NCBI RefSeq assembly: GCF_016861655.1
Contig: NZ_BOLN01000011.1
Span: 1 to 64,000, forward strand
Reading direction: 5' to 3'
DNA from: Levilactobacillus lanxiensis
Lineage (GTDB): Bacteria; Bacillota; Bacilli; Lactobacillales; Lactobacillaceae
DNA: 64,000 nt
Shown here one piece after another: positions 3,306-55,385 of the stretch. The notes beneath the pieces were generated by a model. The model had not been told where the DNA came from. It saw only the letters and a list, made by a program, of their open reading frames with translations, and searched no databases. The position numbers and the translations under genes are program-made. Each line of letters starts with the position of its first letter. The stretch's first letter is position 1.

Positions 3306-3414
3306 ATTGTGCACAACGAATTGTGTTTCCTTCTGCGTATCAACCTGATAGGATATTGGTTATCGGAGAGAGAACAACAGACAATTAAATTTAAAAATTT
3401 TGGGGGAAAAGATA

Positions 3415-6400
3415 ATGACACAACACGTACGCACAAGTTTATGGTTAACGGCGGCAGCGACTCTGGTGGGGGCCGGAATGCTGATGACGGATGACCAAAG
3501 TAAGCACGTCTTTGCCGCAACGTTGGACGCCCAACACCGCGTGGTCGAAACGGGTGATTTAAAACCTGGCGACCGGTTGGACAAGGAAATGACCAACACC
3601 TATTTACAAGAAATTGTTTTGCAAGCGCTTAATCGCGAAAATCAAAGCCGAAAAAAATGGCATGAATTTTCTGAAGTAAAAGTACGAGACGTTGCCCATA
3701 TCAAGCGATTGTCCATTTCAACGGAGAATACCATTTACGGGACCAATATTCCGACGGGTGAATTCACCTTGAACGGGTTGAAATACTTTACCGACTTGGA
3801 AGAACTTTCGTTGGATGGGTCCGTTCGGAACTTTGATGACAAGAACCACTTTTCCGCTGGTGAAAAGCCCGTTTGTCAGGGACAGGGGAAAATTACGCGG
3901 CTGAAGCAACTTGAGCGGCTCCACAAGCTAAAGTCAGTCGACCTGAGTAACAACATGATCAGGGACGTTAGCTCGTTGGCTGGATTACCTGAACTGTCGG
4001 TGCTTCGGCTGGAAGGCTGTCGCATCAAAGATTTCTCACCACTGAAGGGAACGAACTTTGAGGTCTTGAAGCTTTCCGGACAGGTTATTACCGAGAACAG
4101 CCGGTTGAAGGGCCAAACGGTCAACGCCCATCTGGACAACGACTTCACCTGGGTCGATGGGACGAAGAAGCAAATGACTGCCGCCCAAGAATTTGGCATC
4201 ACCTCCTACTATCAGGAATACCGCAACGAGCTGGGAGAATGGCAAATGACGACGCGTTTCTACAAGCCACGGTTCAGCGGGGGCAAGGCAACGCCAAACA
4301 CCCAGGATTATGGCTTGGACTTCAAGGATTTAGCTGTCCAGGAAAAGGTGCGGAAGACGGATACGATTGGGGAAGGTAAGGTTGCCAACGCCGGTCAAGA
4401 TAACCGGTACGCTATGATCGGTGAAGTATTAGGGGATGATGGCAAGCCAATTTGGACGTACATTGACACCTACTCATCCCATGTTTATCCAGCGCCGGTC
4501 ACGGTTTCTTACGTTGATGAAAACGGCAAGACCTTGAGCGAGGACGTCGTGTTGAAGGACAATTTAGGTGTGGCGTATACGGCGGAAGAAAAGAAAATTG
4601 CGGGCTACAAACTGAAAAAGGTTGAGGGCCAAGCAAGTGGGACGTTTACCGAGGAAAAGCAAGCTGTGACCTTCGTTTATGAAGCGGATGGAAATGATAG
4701 CGGTTCCAATAGTAGTGATAACAACGGTGATGGTGACACGAACACCGGGAATGGCGACGGCGGTTCCGATGCCGGGAACGGTGATGGCGGTTCCGACGCA
4801 GGGAACGGCGATGGTGGTTCCGATGCTGGGAACGGCGATGGTGGTTCCGATGCTGGGAACGGCGATGGTGGTTCCGATGCTGGGAACGGCGATGGTGGTT
4901 CCGATGCTGGGAACGGCGATGGTGGTTCCGATGCTGGGAACGGCGATGGTGGTTCCGATGCTGGGAACGGCGATGGTGGTTCCGATGCTGGGAACGGTGA
5001 TGGCGGTTCCGACTCTGGGAACGGTGATGGCGGTGCCGGCTCAGGGAATGGCGATGGCGGTTCCGGCTCAGGGAATGGCGATGGCGGCTCCGACTCAGGG
5101 AATGGCGATGGCGGTTCCGACGCTGGAAACGGTGATGGTGGTTCCGACACTGGTAACGGTAACGGCGGCTCTGGCTCAGGCGGTAACGATGGCAACGTGA
5201 CTGGTCCTGGTGGTAGCGGTTCTGGCAACGGCGGTAGTAACGGTGAGGACAATGGTTCTGACGGTTCGGATGGTTCCGGCGATGGCGGTTCTGGTTCTGG
5301 CGGCGGCAATGACGGGGACGAAAATGATACCGGTACAGATGGTTCCGGCAACGGCAATGGTTCCGGTAGCGGGAATGGGAATGGTTCTGGCAATGGAGAT
5401 GGTTCCGGTAACGGAGATGGCTCTGGCAATGGAGACGGCTCTGGCAATGGAGACGGTTCTGGTGATGGAAATGGCTCTGGTAACGGAGACGGTTCCGGCA
5501 ACGGAGATGGTTCCGGCAACGGGAACGGTTCTGGCGACGGGAATGGCTCTGGTAACGGGGATGGCTCTGGCAACGGGAACGGTTCCGGTAACGGAGATGG
5601 CTCTGGCAACGGGGATGGTTCTGGTAACGGAGATGGCTCTGGCAACGGAGATGGTTCCGGTAACGGAGATGGCTCTGGCAACGGGAACGGTTCCGGTAAC
5701 GGAGATGGCTCTGGCAACGGAGATGGCTCTGGCAACGGAGATGGTTCTGGCAACGGGAATGGCTCTGGTAACGGGGACGGTTCTGGCAACGGAGACGGTT
5801 CTGGCAACGGAGACGGTTCTGGCAACGGAGACGGTTCCGGTAACGGGAACGGTTCCGGCAACAGCAATGGTTCCGGTAGTGGGAATGGTTCCGGCAACGG
5901 CAATGGTTCCGGTAACGGAGATGGTTCTGGCAACGGGAACGGTTCCGGCAACGGAGATGGCTCTGGTAGCGGTAATGGTTCCAATACAGGCAATGGCTCT
6001 AACACCGGCAACGGGTCCAACTCAGGCAACAACAACGACACTGGCGTTGGCAACGGTAGTGGTTCTGGCAATAATACCGGTAACCCGGGTGGCAGCGGAA
6101 ATGGCAACACCGGCAATACCGGCGGTTCCGGTTCCAATACGGGCAATGCTAATGGCAGTAACCAGGGCGGTGGGAACACTGGCAATGGTAATGATCACAA
6201 CACCGGCAATAACAACAGTGGTACTGGAACCGGAAACAACACCGGCTCAGGTAACGGCACGACCGACGTTAGCACGGGAACAACTGGCAATGGTACTAGC
6301 AGCGGCGTAACCGGCGAAACTGGCAGCGTGACTGGCACTGAGAATACCGATGATACGGGCGACCAAAACGTTACAGGTTCCGCTGCAGACACGTTAACGG

Positions 6401-6663
6401 GTGGGACGTCATCGACCAACGACGATGCGCCAACCGGGGTAAGTTACAGCGGGTCTGGTTCAACCAGCTCAACGGGTTCAACTGGCGGTAGCGGTTCCGG
6501 CAGTTACGGCCACAGTGGCAATACAATTGGTGGTCAGACTGCGAACGGTGTTTTACCACAGGCCAACGAACAACAGTCATCTGCTGCTTGGTTAGGAGCT
6601 CTGCTAACGGTCATCACGTTAGGTGGCTGGAAACTGGTCAACCGGAAACGACGTCAGAACTAG
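3415..6663 (+). CDS. Giant LRR/MucBP surface adhesin with Gly-Asn-Asp-Ser repeats
   Basis: Start ATG 3415 follows GGGGG with good spacing; product 1082 residues. Order: export signal (about 1-36, VFA|A); leucine-rich repeats of internalin type (about 90-225: [35 protein letters not shown]); a region about 235-355; a MucBP domain (about 360-423, [13 protein letters not shown] to VTFVYE); low-complexity repeats (about 424-1028), first 9-residue GNGDGGSDA units, then 6-residue GNGDGS units; and a C-terminal anchor LPQANE - hydrophobic helix - RKRR. LRR and MucBP domains in lactobacilli mediate host or matrix binding. The sorting motif lacks the usual Thr. Own transcription unit. Confidence 0.88.
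4747..5155 (+). repeat. 27-nt tandem coding repeat (GNGDGGSDA units)
   Basis: About 15 back-to-back 27-nt units inside the adhesin gene encode GNGDGGSDA and close variants. Several consecutive central units are identical at the nucleotide level, which points to recent expansion by slippage or unequal recombination. Copy number is in frame (multiple of 3), so changes alter stalk length without breaking the gene. Confidence 0.9.
5340..5980 (+). repeat. 18-nt tandem coding repeat (GNGDGS units)
   Basis: About 35 units of 18 nt encode [12 protein letters not shown] or GDGNGS. Codons for Gly and Ser alternate between synonyms (GGT/GGC, TCT/TCC), so units are less uniform than the upstream 27-nt block and the array appears older or diversified. 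All changes keep frame. Confidence 0.88.
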
Positions 6664-11602: not shown

Positions 11603-11616
11603 GCGGGGTAAATCAG

Positions 11617-11798
11617 CGCCTCCGGGCTGGTGAAAATGAGCCGTGACGCTGTGGGCGCGCGCCTGGAGCCGAAGGGCGGTCTCCAGGCTTACTTTGAGCC
11701 GCTGAGAAACGCGTCTCAAAGATAGCAGTTACCTAAGCGGGGAACCCGCTAAGGTAACTCCCACGGCTGAGCTCATTTTCACCAGCCCTGCGGCTGAC
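11617..11798 (+). repeat. Family A structured repeat (copy A1)
   Basis: Begins 14 bp after the flavoprotein stop. Four helices: P1 GGGCTGGTGAAAATGAGC with its exact complement GCTCATTTTCACCAGCCC; P2 CCTGGAG/CTCCAGG; P3 TTTGAG/CTCAAA; P4 AGTTACCTAAGCGGG/CCCGCTAAGGTAACT with one A-A mismatch. Conserved single strands are CCGTGACGCTGTGGGC, GGGCGGT, CACGGCTGAG and the 3' tail CCTGCGGCTGAC. Confidence 0.85.
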
Positions 11799-12078
11799 AC
11801 GGATTTGGCTCGCTGAATTGCGAGTAGCCGGTCTGCGTTGTTGGTCTTGGCTGTTTGGGTGGCCATCGCCTAAGTTAGGCTATTTACTAGGCTGAGGAGG
11901 GCTTATTCGTGGCGCGCCTCTGGACACTCCCACGACCGGCCCAGTTTTCCCAGCCCTGCGGCTGACACTGGTTTGGCCCGCTGAATTGCGAGTAGCCGGT
12001 CTGCGTTGTTTGTCGACTGTTTGGGTGGTCATTGCCTAAGTTAGGTTATTTACTAGACTGAGGAGGGCTAATTCGTGG
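11782..12078 (+). repeat. Tandem duplication of the A1 3' flank
   Basis: A segment starting in the CCAGCCCTGCGGCTGAC tail of element A1 and running about 130 bp to GGAGGGCTTATTCGTGG recurs at about 11950-12078 with few changes. The two copies are separated by about 40 bp. No gene is evident on either strand across 11603-12219. Confidence 0.8.
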
Positions 12079-12219: not shown

Positions 12220-12455
12220 ATCAGAAAATAGTTGTCCAGTATCAGTGACCAGAGGTGGATCAAATTGACCAGCTGTGTCGGTGGTCTTAACTGAGGGGGC
12301 TTCTCAGTTTAGAGCACGGGACGACCTTGAGACCGGGGCTTGGGCTCAAAGGCGAGGTGGCGGACCGCTCTTTAGGCCGCCACCGGTCCCCACAGCAGGG
12401 CTACTTGAATCCACCGCCGGGAACGGCCAGCTAAGACCAAAGCCATTTTCAGATT
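12220..12455 (+). repeat. Family B structured repeat (copy B1)
   Basis: Core 12245-12426: GTGACCAGAGG, CTGTGTCGGTGGTCTT, hairpin AACTGAG/CTCAGTT, GGGACGACC, hairpin CTTGAG/CTCAAAG, GTGGCGG/CCGCCAC, CCCCACAGCAGGG and CCGCCGGGAACGG. The flanks form an imperfect outer stem unique to this copy: ATCAGAAAATAG at 12220 against CATTTTCAGAT at about 12443. Ends about 90 bp before the small ORF at 12547. Confidence 0.8.
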
Positions 12456-14240: not shown

Positions 14241-14470
14241 GGGGGTTCTACGGCGAGTCTGAGTGACCAGAGGTGGGCCAAGTTGGCCAGCTGTGTCGGT
14301 GTTGTTGGCTGGGGTCCTTTCCCAGCCTAGAACACGGGACGACCTTTGAGACCGTTCTTTGGCTCAAAGTCGAGGTGGAAGACCGCCCCTCAGTCTGGAA
14401 CCGACCCCATAGCAGGCCCACTTGAGCCCGCCGCCGGGAACGACAAAGAACCAGCCATAGAAACCCTCAG
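14241..14470 (+). repeat. Family B structured repeat (copy B2)
   Basis: Core 14263-14443 with hairpin GGCTGGG/CCCAGCC, CTTTGAG/CTCAAAG and conserved CTGTGTCGG, GGGACGACC, CCCCATAGCAGG, CCGCCGGGAACG. Outer stem specific to this copy: GGGTTCTACGGCGAG (about 14243) against the complement of CCAGCCATAGAAACCC (14451-14466). It ends about 90 bp before the next gene. Confidence 0.8.
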
Positions 14471-17381: not shown

Positions 17382-17494
17382 ACTGACCGCCTCCTTTTGC
17401 TAGGCTAAAGTGCCTAACAAGTTTAGTCATATTCCCCGGCCGTGTCAATCAATCCCCCTTCGATTGTCGCCATTTTTCTTTTGGCCTTTGGTTT

Positions 17495-17679
17495 CGCCTC
17501 CGGGCGGGGCTAAATAGACCGTGACGCTGTGGGCGGACGACCGGAGCCAAAGGGCGGTCTCCAGTCTTGCTTTGAGCCTCAAAAGGCGAGTCTCAAAGTC
17601 ACCAATTCTCTAAGTGGCCCAGCCCGCCACTAAGAGAATTCCCACGGCTGAGTCTATTTAGCCCCGCCCTGCGGCTGAC
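17495..17679 (+). repeat. Family A structured repeat (copy A2, full length)
   Basis: P1 GGGCGGGGCTAAATAGAC with exact complement GTCTATTTAGCCCCGCCC (a sequence unrelated to P1 of A1 but equally perfect), P2 GGAG/CTCC, P3 TTTGAG/CTCAAA, P4 AATTCTCTAAGTGGC/GCCACTAAGAGAATT with the same A-A mismatch as A1. The joining sequences match A1. Confidence 0.85.
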
Positions 17680-17730
17680 GGTGGCGAAGGTTGGCGACAT
17701 CGGAGTGGGATTTGGCTGATACTTTGTTCT

Positions 17731-18302
17731 CCTCCAGGTGGACGTGTTTGGAAGGATGTCCCGAGCCTAGGGAGCGGTCTCGGGACTTGCTTTGAGCCTC
17801 AAAGGTCGAGTCTCAAAGTCACCATTTCCTGAGGTTCCCTCAGGAAATCCCGCGGCTGAGCCTATTTTGAACCACCCTGCAGGGCTGACGGTGGTGGAGG
17901 TTGGCGGCAATCGGAGTGGAATTGGGCTGACGCTTTATCTTTTTTCGGCTGACAGTGGGGGGTGTGGGCGGACGACCGGAGCCAAAGGGCGGTCTCCGGT
18001 CTTGCTTTGAGCCTCAAGAAGCGAGTCTCAAAGTCACCAATTCTCTAAGTGGCTAAGCCCGCCACTAAGAGAATTCCCACGGCTGAGTCTATTTAGCCCC
18101 GCCCTGCGGCTGACGGTGGCGGAGATTGGCGACAATCGGAGTGGGATTCGCTGACACTTTTTTTTTCGTGTGGGTGTGGTGGGGAACGGTCTCGGGACTT
18201 GCTTTGAGCCTCAAAAGGCGAGTCTCAAAGTCACCATTTCTTGAGGGCACCTCAGGAAAGTCCCGCGGCTGAGCCTATTTTGAACCACCCTGCAGGGCTG
18301 AC
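17731..18302 (+). repeat. Three 5'-truncated family A copies (A3, A4, A5)
   Basis: A3 ends at 17889, A4 at 18114 and A5 at 18302. All three lack the 5' arm of P1 but keep P2-P4 and the 3' arm. A4 is nearly identical to A2; A5 is nearly identical to A3, so the A2-A3 pair appears duplicated as a unit of about 430 bp. In A4 the P2 helix is GACCGGAG/CTCCGGTC, perfect where A2 has a mismatch. No gene is evident in 17400-18500. Confidence 0.8.
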
Positions 18303-18409
18303 GGTGGCGGGGGATGGCGATAATCGGAGTGGGATTGGGCTGACACTTTGTGTTTTTGCAATTTATTTACTGGCTTGTCAATTTCCTAGATTATAAGTTA
18401 TCCTTACTA

Positions 18410-24131: not shown

Positions 24132-24308
24132 CGCCTTACCGGGCGGTTAAAGTAGGCCGGAACGCGGTGGGCAGGACGTCTCAAGCCAAGAAGCGGTCTT
24201 GAGACTCGCTTTGAGCCGCAAAGTCCGCGTCTCAAAGTCGCCATTTTCTAAGAAAATCACTTAGAAAATCCCACGGCTGAGCCTATTTTAACCGCCCTCA
24301 CGGCTGAC
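24132..24308 (+). repeat. Family A structured repeat (copy A6)
   Basis: Begins 20 bp after the preceding stop. P1 GGGCGGTTAAAGTAGGC/GCCTATTTTAACCGCCC (one G-T wobble), P2 GTCTCAAG/CTTGAGAC, P3 TTTGAG/CTCAAA, P4 ATTTTCTAAG/CTTAGAAAAT. All four helices differ in sequence from A1 or A2 except P3. The 3' tail is CTCACGGCTGAC. No gene or clear signal was seen from here to 24588. Confidence 0.85.
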
Positions 24309-24588
24309 ACTGGCGTATCCCGCGACAGTATAGGATGAGACTTGTTAGGCTTGTCAGACTGAATGATGATACGGTCATTCATCGAATTGGCAGGATATAT
24401 TTTAAACTTTACGAAAAGAATCCGCGACAAGCAGATGAAACCGGCATACAATGAGGGCGAAATCTGTTTATGGTTCGATTGTTTTCGGGCGAGTGTTAGT
24501 CATTGTGGCATCAAGAGTGTTGGATGAGATATGCACACTGTGCTTGACATAAGTACAGTTGTAATCAGATCAACGAACTGAAGTAACG

Positions 24589-24817
24589 TTAACTTAGATG
24601 GACCATGTCAGTGACCAGAGGTGGGCCAAGGCGACCAGCTGTGTCGGTGGTCTTGGCTGGAGTTCTTTTCCAGCCTAGAGCACGGGACGACCTGAGAGAC
24701 TGGTGGTTTTCCAGGCTTTCAGGCGAGGTGAAGGACCGCTTCTCAGGCCGGAACCGTGCCCCACAGCAGGGCACCTTGAGCCCACCGCCGGGAACGGCAC
24801 AGATCCATCTAAGTTAA
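24589..24817 (+). repeat. Family B structured repeat (copy B3) with perfect outer stem
   Basis: Core 24611-24797. Outer stem TTAACTTAGATGGA (24589-24602) is the exact inverted complement of TCCATCTAAGTTAA (24804-24817). Inside: GGCTGGA/TCCAGCC, CCTGAGAGACTGG/CCAGGCTTTCAGG, GTGCCC-CACAGCA-GGGCAC and CCGCCGGGAACGG. The element ends 22 bp before the sirtuin start, so the outer stem borders the ribosome binding site. Confidence 0.88.
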
Positions 24818-24839
24818 GGATTAAGAAGGGATGATGGGG

Positions 24840-25544
24840 ATGGAAGCGAGCTTGCAAGCAACCTTTGATGACGCCAAATACATCGTGTTTCTAACCGGTG
24901 CAGGCGTCTCGACGCCGTCGGGAATTCCAGATTACAGGTCGAAAAACGGCCTGTATACGGGACACCGCAACGCCGAGTATTACCTGAGTCACGCCTGCCT
25001 GGTACAGGAGCCAGAGGTCTTTTATGATTATGTGAAACAAAACCTGTACTACCCAGACGCCAAACCCAACGTCATTCATGAAAAACAGGCGGCCTTGACC
25101 CAACAGGACCGGGCGATGGTCATCACACAAAATATTGATAACCTGTACAACGTGGCGCACACTAAGCATTTGGTGGAATTTCACGGCAACATGTATCAGG
25201 TTCACTGTCAGCTCTGCGGGGCGAAGGTCGACTGGCAAGATTACTTGCAGGACCCGCACCACGACGCTGACGGCGGCTGGTTACGACCCGACGTCGTGCT
25301 TTACGACGAGGGCCTCAACGAGCTGAATATTCAGCGGTCAGTTGCCGCGATGGGCCAAGCCGATTTGGTCGTGATTGTCGGGACCTCCATGCGGGTTTAT
25401 CCGTTTGCCGGGCTCCTAGATTACCGCAATCAGCAGGCCAAGGTGGTCGTGGTCAACCAAGAGCGCTTGGATTTGGGCTTTGACTACACGATGGTTCAGG
25501 CGGACGCTACTGAGTTCTTCAACGAACTCCAAGTTCGGGGGTAA
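24840..25544 (+). CDS. Sir2-family NAD-dependent protein deacylase
   Basis: ATGs at 24831, 24834 and 24840 are possible; AGAAGGG (24824-24830) best suits 24840, giving 234 residues. Motifs: GAGVSTPSGIPDYRS (about 20-34), TQNIDNLY (about 97-104), catalytic His in EFHGN (about 114), first zinc pair CQLC (about 123-126), and VGTSMRVYP near 180. The second zinc Cys pair expected before the GGxLRPDVV motif is replaced by HHDAD. Likely removes acyl groups from lysines using NAD+. Sits directly under repeat B3 and is followed 4 bp later by a small membrane protein gene. Confidence 0.86.
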   Translation: MEASLQATFDDAKYIVFLTGAGVSTPSGIPDYRSKNGLYTGHRNAEYYLSHACLVQEPEVFYDYVKQNLYYPDAKPNVIHEKQAALTQQDRAMVITQNIDNLYNVAHTKHLVEFHGNMYQVHCQLCGAKVDWQDYLQDPHHDADGGWLRPDVVLYDEGLNELNIQRSVAAMGQADLVVIVGTSMRVYPFAGLLDYRNQQAKVVVVNQERLDLGFDYTMVQADATEFFNELQVRG

Positions 25545-28971: not shown

Positions 28972-28990
28972 GGGTTTAACCCTCTGGCCA

Positions 28991-29169
28991 CGCCTCCGGG
29001 CTGGTGAAAATGGGCCGTGGCGCTGTGGGCGCGCGCCTGAAGCCTGAGAAGCGGTCTTCAGACTTACTTTGAGCCGAAGTTCACGTCTCAAAGATAGCAG
29101 TTGCCTAAGCGGTAAACCGCTAAGGCAACTCCCACGGCTGAGCCCATTTTCACCAGCCCTGCGGCTGAC
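28991..29169 (+). repeat. Family A structured repeat (copy A7)
   Basis: Begins 20 bp after metG. P1 GGGCTGGTGAAAATGGGCC with GGCTGAGCCCATTTTCACCAGCCC; compared with A1, one A-T pair has become G-C on both strands. P4 AGTTGCCTAAGCGG/CCGCTAAGGCAACT likewise swaps A-T for G-C relative to A1. P2 CTGAAG/CTTCAG. Confidence 0.87.
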
Positions 29170-29515
29170 GTGGTGTTAACCCGTAGCTCACTGACGTAGA
29201 TGTTGACAATGACACATGGTGTTGTCAGCACGCCACGTGTAACCTGTGGGCGCTAGGTGTTACGGATTAATTCTTTACTGTGAATCAGCCTAAGAAGCGG
29301 GTCCCATGGGCTAAGCTGAGCAGATCACTCAGCTAAGGCCATCGACACAGCTGGTCACTTTGGCCCGCCTCTGGTCACTAATATTGACTGCGTGGCCCAT
29401 TCTCACCAGCCCTGCGGCTGACATGGTGTTAACCCGTAGCTCACTGACGTCGTGTTAAATGGTACATGGTACTGTCAGCATGCCGCAGGTAGTTTGTGGG
29501 TTAGCGTTATAGCAT
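29145..29515. repeat. Duplicated A7 flank split by an inverted partial family B element
   Basis: The segment from CCAGCCCTGCGGCTGAC through GTGTTAACCCGTAGCTCACTG (from 29153) recurs from about 29399 with divergence further on. Between the copies, on the minus strand, 29300-29378 is a 5' part of family B (GTGACCAGAGG, CTGTGTCGATGG, hairpin AGCTGAG/CTCAGCT, CCCATGGGAC). No gene seen between 28972 and 29642. Confidence 0.7.
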
Positions 29516-32201: not shown

Positions 32202-32255
32202 TTGGGCCAATTAGGCCTTTTTATTTTGTCTAAATTTTTCAGACTGACCTGACCG

Positions 32256-32326
32256 AAAAGGGTGTGTCAAGGCCGGTAGTGGCGCTTAATCCCGCTAACT
32301 ACTTGGCTTTTGACACACTCTTTTTA
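32256..32326 (+). terminator. Long-stem terminator after veg
   Basis: AAAAGGGTGTGTCAA (32256-32270) pairs with TTGACACACTCTTTTT (32310-32325); the 39-nt apical part forms further short helices. T-run at the end. Confidence 0.8.
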
Positions 32327-32410
32327 TTTTGGCTAAAACCATAGTATAATAGGCTTAATTAGAATTACGAGAACGGTAGGCAACCTACCTAGTAGAATTC
32401 AGGTGAGCAC

Positions 32411-41613: not shown

Positions 41614-42062
41614 GTTTAGTTGCCGCCTGCGGCCTCTGGGTACTCCGCCTTCTGTGGGGCACGCTTGCGGCCTGAGGGGCGGTCCTCCAGCTCGGTTTGA
41701 AGCCGGAAGTCCGCCGTCTCCAAACACGTCCCATGCTGTAAGTCCGGGGAAATTCGCCCGAACTAACACCATCGACACAGAAGACTGCGTCCCCAGCTGC
41801 CTCCGACTCTTGACGGCGACCCGACCAGTCTCGTTGGTTCGAGGATTTGGGTTGTGGATGACTTGCCGCCTGCGGCCTCTGGGTACTCCGCCTTCTGTGG
41901 GGAGCGCTTGCGGCCTGAGGGGCGGTCCTCCAGCTCGGTTTGAAGTCGGAAGCCCGCCGTCTCCAAACACGTCCCATGCTGTAAGCCCGGGAAAGTTCGC
42001 CCGGACTAACACCATCGACACAGAAGACTGCGTCCCCAGCTGCCTCCGGCTCTTGATGGTGG
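41614..42062 (-). repeat. Two tandem family B-like elements in inverse orientation
   Basis: Two copies with a period of 243 bp, highly similar to each other, lie downstream of xylR on the minus strand. Read in that direction each shows CTGTGTCGATGG, hairpin GTTCGGG/CCCGGAC (or a variant), GGGACGTG, GAGGACCGC, CCTCAGGCCG and CCCCACAGAAGG, the same order as the family B core, but a different 5' part (GGAGGCAGCTGGGG). Open frames on both strands here are by-products of the GC-rich repeat. Nothing else seen from 41532 to 42227. Confidence 0.75.
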
Positions 42063-42227: not shown

Positions 42228-42458
42228 TGAAAGTGAGGCGTCCATGTGAGTGACCAGAGGCGGGCCAAAATGCCCAGCTGTGTCGGTGGTCTTAACTGAG
42301 TGGGCTTCTCAGTTTAGAGCACGGGACGACCTTGGAAACTCGCGATTTTTAGCGAGGTTTCAAGACGAGGCGAAAGCCCGTACCTCAGGCTGAAACCGGC
42401 CCCATAGCAGGGCGTTTTGAGACCGCCGCCGGGAACGGATGGTCACACTCAGTTTCAC
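42228..42458 (+). repeat. Family B structured repeat (copy B4)
   Basis: Core 42250-42438: CTGTGTCGGTGGTCTT, hairpin AACTGAG/CTCAGTT, GGGACGACC, a long hairpin CTTGGAAACTCGC/GCGAGGTTTCAAG, CCCCATAGCAGGG, CCGCCGGGAACGG. Outer stem TGAAAGTGAG...TGTGA against TCACACTCAGTTTCA (one mismatch, 8-nt bulge). Ends about 100 bp before the GH1 gene. Confidence 0.8.
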
Positions 42459-45349: not shown

Positions 45350-45598
45350 GAATCGTGGAAATGCATCATCAATGTTAGTGACTAGAGGTAGGCCAAGGTG
45401 CCCGGCTGTGTCGGTGGTCTTGACTGAGTGATTTTCTCAGTCTAGAGCACGGGACGACCTGAGAGACTGGTGGTTTTCCAGTCTTTCAGGCGAGGTGTAG
45501 GACCACTCCCCAGGCCGGAACCGTTCCCCACAGCAGGGCACCTTGAGGCCGCCGCCGGGAACGGCAAGCCGACACCACGATTCATTTTCACGATTTCG
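45350..45598 (+). repeat. Family B structured repeat (copy B5)
   Basis: Core 45378-45564: hairpin GACTGAG/CTCAGTC, CCTGAGAGACTGG/CCAGTCTTTCAGG, CCGTTCCC pairing with GGGAACGG, CACAGCAGGGC. Outer stem GAATCGTGGAAATGCATC (from 45350) against the complement of CACGATTCATTTTCACGATT (45576-45595). Ends about 55 bp before the hydrolase gene. The stretch 45159-45349 shows no gene. Confidence 0.82.
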
Positions 45599-47700: not shown

Positions 47701-47742
47701 TAGTATTGAAGATTGTGTTCAACTAAATGAGTGATTAACCCC

Positions 47743-47772
47743 AAGTCAGTCCGCCAACCGGGCTGGCTTTTT
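47743..47772 (+). terminator. Rho-independent terminator after pyrD
   Basis: AAGTCAGTCCG pairs with CGGGCTGGCTT (G-T wobbles) around a CCAAC loop, followed by T5. Confidence 0.7.
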
Positions 47773-47811
47773 ACATTTGTGCAAAGTTTCCACCCCGCCG
47801 CCCGAAAGCTG

Positions 47812-47863
47812 TTGACAAGTTTTCAATTTCTGGTAAACTACTAAACGGTAATCATTACTGTTT
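47812..47863 (+). promoter_or_regulatory. Promoter with Zur-like box for zinc transporter operon
   Basis: TTGACA (47812-47817) -N16- TAAACT (47834-47839) is followed at 47843-47863 by AAACGGTAATCATTACTGTTT, built on the perfect palindrome GTAAT-C-ATTAC, close to the Gram-positive Zur box. It overlaps the expected transcription start. The resulting leader of about 400 nt contains a family B-related element. Confidence 0.75.
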
Positions 47864-48039
47864 ACATAAAGGTATGTTTGTTTAAACATTCTGGTTAGTA
47901 TGCCTATTCGTGTCAGAATAATAATCGTGCGAATGGTTAGTTAGCTTATCTGTTGTCTAGCGTTTACCGACCTAATGGTGAAGAAGAGCACCAGAACTTA
48001 AGCGACACTCAACACTGATTCTTGATTGGTGCGCTACCA

Positions 48040-48213
48040 TAGCCGCAGGCAGCCAGGGATGGAGTCAGCGAGGTGGAAGCCCGCTCTTTGGCTGGAACCG
48101 GGCCCCACAGCAGGCGGAATCCCTGAAGGCCGGAGGCGGCTAGGCGGAGGAACGATTCACAGGCTGGAACCGTTCCCCACAGCAGGGCACTTTGAGCCCA
48201 CCGCCGGGAACGG
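48040..48213 (+). repeat. Compact and partial family B elements in the znu leader
   Basis: 48040-48142 keeps only the 3' domain of family B (GAGGTGGAAGCCCGC, GGAACCGGGCCCCACAGCAGG) on its own stem TAGCCGC..AGGGAT / ATCCCT..GCGGCTA. 48143-48213 is a second 3' fragment (CCGTTCCCCACAGCAGGGC ... CCGCCGGGAACGG). Both lie between the Zur-box promoter and the first transporter gene, so they are transcribed in its 5' leader. Confidence 0.75.
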
Positions 48214-48258
48214 ACAGCGAAGCACACAGCTCACTATTTGATAAAAAATGAAGTAAAG

Positions 48259-49191
48259 ATGGGGATGACGGACTTGCGAAAACAAATAGGACGACTGAAA
48301 GGCCTCCGGTGGCTAGCACTGGTGGCCAGTTTGGTGGCGGTTTTCACCTTGGCGGGGTGCCAAGCAACGACCCAGCCCAAGCAGTCCGGCAAAATCAACG
48401 TGGTGGCGACGCTAGGCTTTTATGGCGAAGCGGCGGAAGCGATTTTAGGTGATCAAGGCAACGTCCACACGATTATCAACAGTCCCAGTATCGACGCCGA
48501 GAGCTATGAGCCGGACGTGAAGACGGCTAAGCTGGTTGCTAAGGCCAACGTGGTGGTTGAGAATGGTCTGGGCTATGACAGCTGGATGGACCGCGTGGTG
48601 GCCGCAAATGAGGGCTCTGGGACGCAGACCTTGTCGATTGGCAAACTCATGGGCAAGACCACGGGGGACAATCCCCATCTGTGGTCGGACCCGACCGTGA
48701 TGACGCAGGTCACGCAGCGGTTGGTCACCCAGTTCAGCCGCATCTCACCCAAGCACGCAGCTGATTTCAAACGCCGTGGGGCCGCTTACGAGAAGCAACT
48801 GGCCGTATTAACGAAAACGGCCAAGCAAATCAAACGTCACGCCCACGGGCAGAAGGTCGCTGTGAGTGAACCAGTCTTTGATCTGGCGTTGACCGCGATG
48901 GGCTACCAGGTCAGCGACGGTCATTTTGCCCAATCCATCGAGGAGGACAGTGACCCAACTCCGGCCGACATCACCCAATTACAAAAGCAGATCAAGCACC
49001 ATCAAATTGCCTTTTTCGTGGAGAATACCCAAAACTCCAGTAAGAACGTGACCGCCATGGTCCAGCTCGCCCATAAGTACCACGTGCCCGTGGTTCAGGT
49101 GACGGAGACCATGCCGACCCACCAAACGTACCGGACCTGGATGCTGCAACAGTATCGCCAGGTCCAACGGATTCAGGAGGAGAATCGCTAA
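48259..49191 (+). CDS. znuA: Zinc ABC transporter substrate-binding lipoprotein (ZnuA-like)
   Basis: 310 residues from ATG 48259 (ATG 48265 possible). Lipoprotein signal peptide with lipobox TLAG|C, so it is anchored outside the membrane. Cluster A-I solute-binding fold: INVVATLGFYGE, NPHLWSDPTVM (His ligand), VAVSEPVFDLAL and FFVENTQNSSKN. The first His (usual DPHxYEP) and third His are not at their normal places; Glu occurs instead (DAESYEPD, SEPVF), so the metal site is atypical. The Zur-like box and the following ATPase and permease genes indicate zinc (manganese is an alternative). Confidence 0.87.
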   Translation: MGMTDLRKQIGRLKGLRWLALVASLVAVFTLAGCQATTQPKQSGKINVVATLGFYGEAAEAILGDQGNVHTIINSPSIDAESYEPDVKTAKLVAKANVVVENGLGYDSWMDRVVAANEGSGTQTLSIGKLMGKTTGDNPHLWSDPTVMTQVTQRLVTQFSRISPKHAADFKRRGAAYEKQLAVLTKTAKQIKRHAHGQKVAVSEPVFDLALTAMGYQVSDGHFAQSIEEDSDPTPADITQLQKQIKHHQIAFFVENTQNSSKNVTAMVQLAHKYHVPVVQVTETMPTHQTYRTWMLQQYRQVQRIQEENR

Positions 49192-50682: not shown

Positions 50683-50686
50683 AGTG

Positions 50687-50977
50687 TGGAGCGAGCCGTT
50701 TAGGTCCTGAGCATTAACGTCGACTAAGTGATGACCCTGGGCTTGGGTCATTGCTTAGTCGGGGTTAAGCGCAGGGACCTGGCTCGCGGAACACGTTTCG
50801 GAGGATGCCAGGGCCGAAAACTGTTCCGTGTAGAACGAAATTAACGAACTAAGCAAATCTAAGTTGAGCGTAAAGTCTGAGGCTTGGGTCATTGCTTAGT
50901 CGGGGTTAAGCGCAGGGACCTGCCCCACGGAACACGTTTCAGAGGACGCCAGGGCCGAAAACTGTTCCGTGAAGAAC
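50687..50977 (+). repeat. Family C structured repeats (C1 full, C2 5'-truncated)
   Basis: C1 (50687-50836): GCGAGCC/GGCTCGC; AGGTCCTG/CAGGGACCT; TTAA/TTAA; GACTAAGTGATGACCC/GGGTCATTGCTTAGTC, then a second hairpin GGAACA..TTTCGG/CCGAAAA..TGTTCC. C2 (50881-50977) starts at the apical loop and lacks every 5' arm, but repeats the rest closely. No gene was seen from 50683 to 51209. Confidence 0.83.
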
Positions 50978-51091
50978 AAGATTGGCGAACTGAACCAGTC
51001 TGAATTGAACGCAGGTCTCGGGTTGAAATGGGACTAAGTAATCCAATCGTTATCCATACCAAGCGACACTTAAATAAATTAAGCTAAAACT

Positions 51092-51209: not shown

Positions 51210-51457
51210 CGCCACCAAAAATCACAAAGACAACTGTCAGTGACTAGAGGCGGGTCAAGCAACCCAGCTGTGTCGGCGGTCTTAGCTGAGGTTTCCTACT
51301 CAGCTTAGCCCGCGGGACAACCTTTGAGACCGCCTTTTGGCTCAAAGTTGAGGTGGAAGCCCGCCCCACAGGCTGGAACCGGCCCCATAGCAGGGCTGCT
51401 TGAACCCGCCGTCGGGAACGGAAGGCAACAGCCAGTCCAGTAATTTGGAAGGTGGCG
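51210..51457 (+). repeat. Family B structured repeat (copy B6)
   Basis: Core 51240-51421 with hairpin AGCTGAG/CTCAGCT, GGGACAACC, CTTTGAG/CTCAAAG, CCCCATAGCAGGG and CCGTCGGGAACGG. Outer stem begins CGCCACC (51210-51216) against GGTGGCG (51451-51457) and continues with AAAATCAC / GTAATTT and GACAACTGT / ACAGCCAGTC. Ends about 170 bp before purR. Confidence 0.78.
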
Positions 51458-54924: not shown

Positions 54925-54936
54925 AAAAGATACGGA

Positions 54937-54978
54937 GAGACTCAAGTGGCGCGGTGGTGCGTGGCTTGGGTCTTTTTT
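54937..54978 (+). terminator. Rho-independent terminator after prs
   Basis: GACTCAAG pairs with CTTGGGTC (one wobble) around an 18-nt loop, followed by T6. Confidence 0.75.
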
Positions 54979-54981
54979 AGA

Positions 54982-55385
54982 GTGCGGAGCGAGCCGCTTA
55001 GACTCTGAGCATTAACGTGACTAAGAGAATATCCCCGCACTTGGGATATTTTCTTAGTCGGGTTAAGCGCAGGAGTCTGGCTCGCGTAGCACGTTTCAGA
55101 GGCTGCCAGGACCGGGAGAGTTCCGTGGAGAACCAGACAAATGGTTTAAAGCAATTTAGATGGAATACTTGGGGTCATTGCTTAGTCGGGGTTAAGCGCA
55201 GGGACCTGGCTCGTGGAACACGTTTCGGAGGCTGCCAGTATCGGGATGGTGCCGTGGAGAACAAGTCCAGATCACTAAAGCAATATTGGCGTCTGGGATA
55301 TTTTCTTAGCCACGTTAAGCGCAGGAGTCTGCCCCGCGTAGCACGTTTCGGAGGCCGCCAGGACCGGGATAGTTCCACACAGAAC
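54982..55385 (+). repeat. Family C repeat array (C3 full, C4 and C5 5'-truncated)
   Basis: C3 (54982-55134): GCGAGCC/GGCTCGC; AGACTCTG/CAGGAGTCT; TTAA/TTAA; GACTAAGAGAATATCCC/GGGATATTTTCTTAGTC; then CACGTTTC...CCAGGACCGGG. Compared with C1, the second and fourth helices have new sequences on both arms. C4 (about 55169-55262) carries C1-type arms and C5 (about 55291-55385) C3-type arms; both lack the 5' half. Confidence 0.83.

Follow-up and report, generated by a model that had tools for sequence, protein, structure and literature searches.

An undescribed, structure-conserved intergenic repeat superfamily in Levilactobacillus and other Lactobacillaceae

Among described bacterial repeats, BOX and bcr1 are the closest in kind to the elements studied here. 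BOX, treated together with RUP and SPRITE in Streptococcus pneumoniae, is described as a dispersed, non-coding and co-transcribable repeat with extensive predicted RNA structure (PMC3049150), and the repeats of the Bacillus cereus group are given as 100–400 bp long with features of mobile DNA, with as many as 130 bcr1 copies in one genome (PMC6542083). REP/BIME sequences are described as high-copy extragenic palindromes whose orientations often alternate (PMC2817692). Further accounts describe Lac-1, a stem-loop family of L. johnsonii assigned to type G (PMC2267715), and Lacto-int, a Lactobacillales motif that its source displays without an Rfam number (PMC2864571).

Here we describe a new, dispersed, non-coding intergenic repeat of lactic acid bacteria that is kept folded like RNA. 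It forms a real, undescribed, structure-conserved superfamily that is kin in kind to BOX and bcr1 as those are described: it shares with BOX a dispersed, non-coding and extensively structured character (PMC3049150), and with bcr1 the status of a high-copy repeat of similar kind (PMC6542083). The same descriptions also set it apart, since BOX is composed of boxA, boxB and boxC modules (PMC3049150) whereas the present element has one branched core, and bcr1 belongs to the B. cereus group only and carries a TTTAT motif (PMC6542083) whereas this family belongs to Lactobacillaceae and has other ends. It differs further from BOX in that most of its pairs have changed on both sides, in its occurrence in 9/40 sampled genera and in that copies sharing an intergenic region are never convergent. 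REP sequences, with a reported size of 20–40 bp (PMC3733652), contrast with the 230–300 bases and branched core found here.

The family was recognized in a 64-kb window of Levilactobacillus lanxiensis (the whole stretch of DNA analyzed, 64,000 nucleotides), where the original prediction had named seven copies of a "Family B". All seven are present. A covariance model built from 53 B-like copies gives 16 matches in the window at E <1e-5, namely these seven and nine copies on the minus strand, which the first reading missed together with the geometry described below; a seventeenth match (E 0.05) is the back of the 24589 copy. The copy at 48040, put forward as a compact form, is indeed a copy, and owes its shortness to an internal deletion. 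The 14-base arms at 24589–24602 and 24804–24817 are perfectly complementary, as described, and the compensated changes of the inner hairpins are likewise real, as are the arms reported at 45350 and 51210. We use "A" for the compact, shorter minus-strand copies of the window, and compare the genome itself (G000) with those of L. wangkuiensis (G029), L. mulengensis (G016) and L. brevis CD0817 (G030), among others. The copies in the window are as follows.

24589–24817, plus strand: the given copy, arms around the core; model match 24635–24770, 156 bits, E 4.3e-35
12240–12428, plus strand: B copy, core 12269–12399; weak pairing of the outer flanks (rank 19 of 57)
14258–14445, plus strand: B copy, core 14287–14416; other hairpin II type in the L. 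wangkuiensis orthologue
42245–42440, plus strand: B copy, core 42274–42411
45373–45566, plus strand: B copy, core 45402–45537; outer stem TCGTGG/CCACGA, in L. mulengensis TTGTGG/CCACAA
51235–51423, plus strand: B copy, core 51264–51394; core mostly deleted in L. mulengensis
48065–48186, plus strand: internally deleted copy, complete in L. wangkuiensis and L. mulengensis; the 3′ part of a B copy follows
11616–11811, minus strand: A-type (compact) copy, core 11645–11770; 3′ end faces the upstream gene
17494–18303, minus strand: A-type tandem array, cores 17523–17651, 17743–17883 and 17961–18086; partial copy 18182–18303
24139–24321, minus strand: A-type copy, core 24161–24280; divergent partner of the 24589 copy
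28987–29190, minus strand: A-type copy, core 29019–29141
29274–29443, minus strand: B copy without its 3′ part (also in L. wangkuiensis and L. mulengensis), with a further internal deletion here
41648–41784, minus strand: second B-like subtype (A2), covariance model match
41891–42027, minus strand: second B-like subtype (A2), divergent partner of the 42245 copy

Three other features of the window were recorded alongside these copies. A different repeat, GAGCATTAACG...GGTTAAGCGC, lies at 50683–50990 and 54925–55300, and its inner and outer hairpins are swapped as whole complementary blocks among L. lanxiensis, L. wangkuiensis and L. mulengensis. The region 47701–48321 holds an extra reading frame of ~415 aa, transporter-like by eye, in L. 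wangkuiensis and L. mulengensis that is absent from L. lanxiensis. Short-period repeats at 5337–5981, within a reading frame (3400–6663) that has weak internalin-like family matches, align to relatives in many registers.

The observation of Family B was mostly right, and it understated the family. In the L. lanxiensis genome, 150/150 scored candidates (taken from 1228 first-look candidates) match the covariance model, the weakest at E 2.3e-23, and the genome therefore holds at least 150 copies, with lengths of ~230 bases for the compact and ~300 bases for the long form. The model built on B-like copies scores five compact A copies at 51–60 bits and a sixth at 33, which places A and B in one superfamily. 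Across Levilactobacillus, 34/35 genomes match the model, L. lanxiensis counted (25/35 by DNA search alone); L. brevis CD0817 has at least 144 copies, and the fewest matches are in G024 (0 of 95 scored), G012 (2) and L. brevis ATCC 14869 (G004; 9). Under stricter filters, 30/151 genomes of a Lactobacillaceae sample that includes L. lanxiensis match. The left-end pattern has 126 matches within 3 mismatches and its reversed form has none. Rfam 15, searched over the whole window at the gathering score, returned 5S rRNA and tRNA only; positions 24400–24900 gave no match at E up to 1, and eight other loci matched no Rfam family. Plasmids and phages searched with the 24589 copy likewise gave no match, and in the open-access literature searched we found no paper naming such a repeat in Levilactobacillus.

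In its common form in L. lanxiensis the element begins with a left end, GGGYTAAACCAGTGTYAGCCGCAGGG, followed by an outer stem and a branched core of three hairpins with the conserved segments CTGTGTCG, GGGACGACC and CCCCACAGC, and closes with a right end, CCCGGAGGCG, after which GTTTAACCC is often found. Its core is under selection for the fold. A MAFFT alignment shows both sides changed in 25/39 core pairs (18.2 in shuffles) and 322 double-change cells (105 in shuffles), and 0/500 shuffles reach any of five measures; 96.2% of cells pair in this alignment, which was made without fitting to a structure, although that figure leans toward the structure because the latter was derived from the alignment. 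When 150 copies are fitted to the model, double changes appear in 36/39 pairs (1035 cells versus 255 in shuffles). Across the two analyses, covariation exceeds all 500 shuffles and all slides. The core also contains conserved unpaired positions. Since the copies are related, the counts of pair changes and of G-U pairs are of non-independent events.

Evidence on which strand folds comes from G-U and A-C counts across copies. For the 24589 copy the predicted folding energy is −120.5 kcal/mol (z −7.7) on the given strand and a little lower, −123.8 kcal/mol (z −9.6), on the opposite one, so single-copy folding tells no strand. Among the copies, G-U exceeds A-C in core pairs by 316 to 46; one pair contributes 106 G-U, and setting it aside still leaves ~210 against no more than 46. 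The excess is found where the gene at the 3′ side is sense (159:18) and where it is antisense (140:26), and points to the element's own strand as the one that folds, be it as RNA or as single-stranded DNA.

The outer stem is more variable. The original prediction held that every copy carries a different, unrelated stem whose two flanks pair with each other, and that this stem appears to be selected. We compared flanks in 57 copies (68 matches, of which 59 were full-length, less the truncated L015:1521 and one with a short flank). Own flanks pair at a mean of −28.6 kcal/mol, versus −18.3 kcal/mol between different copies; the longest perfect stem is 9.5 versus 6.0 bases, and among the 57 right flanks the own one pairs best in 20 copies and is in the top five in 32. 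Pairing within copies thus holds on average and fails in some: L024:2843, L030, L036:1552 and L035:1706 (ranks 56, 49, 48 and 48) have own outer pairing no better than foreign. Nor are the stems unrelated everywhere, as 30/57 left flanks carry, inside the conserved ends, a variant of GGTGAAAATG and so share variants of one stem. The 27 copies without this motif still favor their own flanks (−20.9 versus −13.8 kcal/mol; 13 rank first), and locus-specific stems are therefore real. Selection on the outer stem was borne out in part. When seven window copies are set against their orthologues, pairing is retained at 27/51 changed outer pairs (10 double changes) and at 42/50 changed core pairs (22 double changes), so the outer stem is constrained, less than the core. 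This comparison used the RNAalifold structure of the same sequences, was usable for 7/16 window copies (three in one species only) and excluded 19 gapped outer cells. In the 45350 copy, for example, the stem that pairs in both L. lanxiensis and L. mulengensis is partly broken in L. wangkuiensis.

Compensated pairing could also arise in an ordinary MITE, that is, a DNA palindrome on whose ends a resident transposase acts and whose arms are matched by template-switch correction. We regard this as rather unlikely. The ends GGGYTAAAC and GTTTAACCC are partly inverted by eye in many but not all copies, no coding capacity was seen, copy number is high and the 24589 copy folds slightly better on its opposite strand, all of which a MITE would share. 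Correction of a palindrome, however, predicts neither conserved unpaired positions nor G-U in excess of A-C, and neither an insertion sequence with these ends nor another autonomous partner was found in 29 of the 126 left-end loci.

Copies keep to a strict geometry, with the 3′ end nearly always toward the nearest gene. With genes called by a simple caller made for this analysis, 0/162 copies overlap a called gene by >40 bases; 12/162 lie at a locus edge without context, leaving 150 placeable. Neighboring copies in the same intergenic region (n = 60 pairs) are divergent in 43 cases, tandem in 17 and convergent in none (probability 3e-8 under an expectation of one quarter convergent). Minus copies precede plus copies in 43 of 50 multi-copy regions, the other 7 having one orientation only, and in single-copy regions, 46/52 of which had both neighbors, the 3′ end is nearer the gene in 42/46 and not in 4. 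Many of the L. lanxiensis loci were chosen for holding copies, and geometry played no part in the choice. Genome-wide, the best 150 L. lanxiensis copies form 11 divergent, 3 tandem and 0 convergent pairs at distances up to 700 bases; convergent neighbors occur only past 1.2 kb (3 within 2.5 kb, 15 within 10 kb), with genes between. At the same spacing, close neighbors are all divergent both among the matches listed for L. brevis CD0817 (3 pairs; 91 of at least 144 matches) and among those listed for a genome of another genus (G171; 7 pairs; 59 of 130 matches). Downstream of copies A exceeds T, as would suit an A-rich target, but element-free edges have this excess as well at gene starts (0.32 versus 0.26) and hardly at gene ends (0.28 versus 0.27). 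To our knowledge, outward geometry is not a feature of MITEs, and we count it against that explanation.

Such placement could instead reflect a host boundary element, in which outward copies limit or mark RNA entering genes from mid-intergenic transcription in both directions. The absence of convergent pairs, the 42/46 single copies, their recurrence in L. lanxiensis genome-wide, in L. brevis CD0817 and in another genus (up to 700 bases, among the matches listed), and the own-strand G-U excess whichever way the gene points all agree with this proposal. Against it, sites vary between species, and neither a promoter at a fixed distance nor a dedicated terminator was found, which leaves it unlikely in our estimation. 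A simple two-box scan upstream of 164 copies revealed no promoter at constant spacing; the better box is outward in 53/86 copies whose 3′ gene is sense and in 41/78 whose 3′ gene is antisense. Sense-direction terminators lie downstream of 4/88 copies where the 3′ gene is sense (shuffles, 2) and of 9/76 where it is antisense (shuffles, 1). We thus rejected an own promoter and an own terminator. The same terminator counts and the lack of a consistent upstream promoter also speak against a family of trans-acting small RNA genes, which the complex conserved fold and conserved segments might suggest and which we consider scarcely probable.

Several copies lie directly before start codons in sense orientation, among them the 24589 copy, which precedes sir2, and the 48065 copy lies behind promoter-like sequence by eye. 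These positions, and a bias in the first L. lanxiensis set (38/56 sense), would suit a cis-regulatory leader, a riboswitch-like or protein-binding RNA placed ahead of many genes. In the larger set the bias is gone: beside tandem genes, the 150 placeable copies include 53 sense and 53 antisense. Antisense copies have the same G-U excess, presence at a given gene varies by species and at two sites, by eye, the apparent promoter is downstream of the copy, all of which makes this function very unlikely.

Presence differs between species. In 12 readable plus-strand loci upstream of sir2, L. lanxiensis has one B copy, L. wangkuiensis and L. mulengensis have two, G005, G006 and G011 have other forms, and in six none was seen; sir2 itself is split into two frames in G002 (C12:26913–27609). 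Window region 32202–32410 and its orthologues L113, L114, L117, L121, L125, L132 and L133 contain no copy by the model, while orthologues L118 and L141 contain two and L130 one; L117 may retain traces of a decayed copy. By eye, copies precede the promoter-like sequence of the next gene both in this region and where L118 is compared with L117. Filled and unfilled sites have diverged too far to be read, and no empty site with readable ends or a target duplication was found among those compared; L132 at sir2, considered as an empty site, proved to be a deletion remnant.

Copies decay by deletion, and tandem arrays of them occur. At the 14258 site, the L. wangkuiensis orthologue keeps the arms and has the other hairpin II type with further core changes; in this single case the core looks as if it had been converted by another copy. 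Separately, L178, L180, L181, L195 and L197 contain truncated B 5′ pieces (~75–105 bases) followed 60–100 bases later by a complete A copy, with the same left-end variant in L178, L181, L195 and L197. The dispersed, species-variable distribution would fit mobility. The original prediction of an undescribed structured RNA or hairpin-type mobile element therefore holds for structure, given covariation beyond shuffles and no Rfam match; as to mobility, the distribution is compatible and no insertion with readable ends was found.

We also searched for candidate mobilizers. Y1 transposase matches occur in 23/35 genomes, and reverse transcriptase (RVT_1) in 10/35, L. lanxiensis included. Y1 matches are absent from G002, G003, G020 and L. 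wangkuiensis, in which 94 or 95 of 95 scored candidates match the model, and RVT_1 matches from L. mulengensis and other genomes with 95/95 matching candidates, although these drafts may lack genes. By inspection of the tables, neither was borne out as a necessary mobilizer. Lack of Y1 matches in four copy-rich relatives is unlike REP/RAYT, though L. lanxiensis itself has two.

Together, our results lead us to favor, with slightly better than even confidence, a Lactobacillaceae superfamily of structure-selected, non-autonomous mobile repeats resembling BOX and bcr1. Such an element would be copied through a folded strand, RNA or single-stranded DNA, with the help of a trans-acting factor, and the geometry of 3′ end to gene would come from the insertion mechanism and not from later selection. 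Partial homogenization of cores among copies, together with drift of the arms at their own loci under a weaker pairing constraint, would account for the pattern of the same core on different stems. More tentatively, the family may be a fixed-polarity element inserted or kept at both edges of intergenic regions, its 3′ end toward the gene whichever way that gene runs, either selfish, with folded-strand copying and insertion that follows outward transcription or local melting, or a genome-wide boundary system of structured RNA; if so, it would represent a bacterial repeat of a new kind in either case. The outward geometry offers a clue to how the repeat inserts or to a role at gene edges. With a well conserved fold that lacks an Rfam match and is present at least 150 times in a food-associated genus, the family provides a testable case of structure selection in a site-variable repeat.
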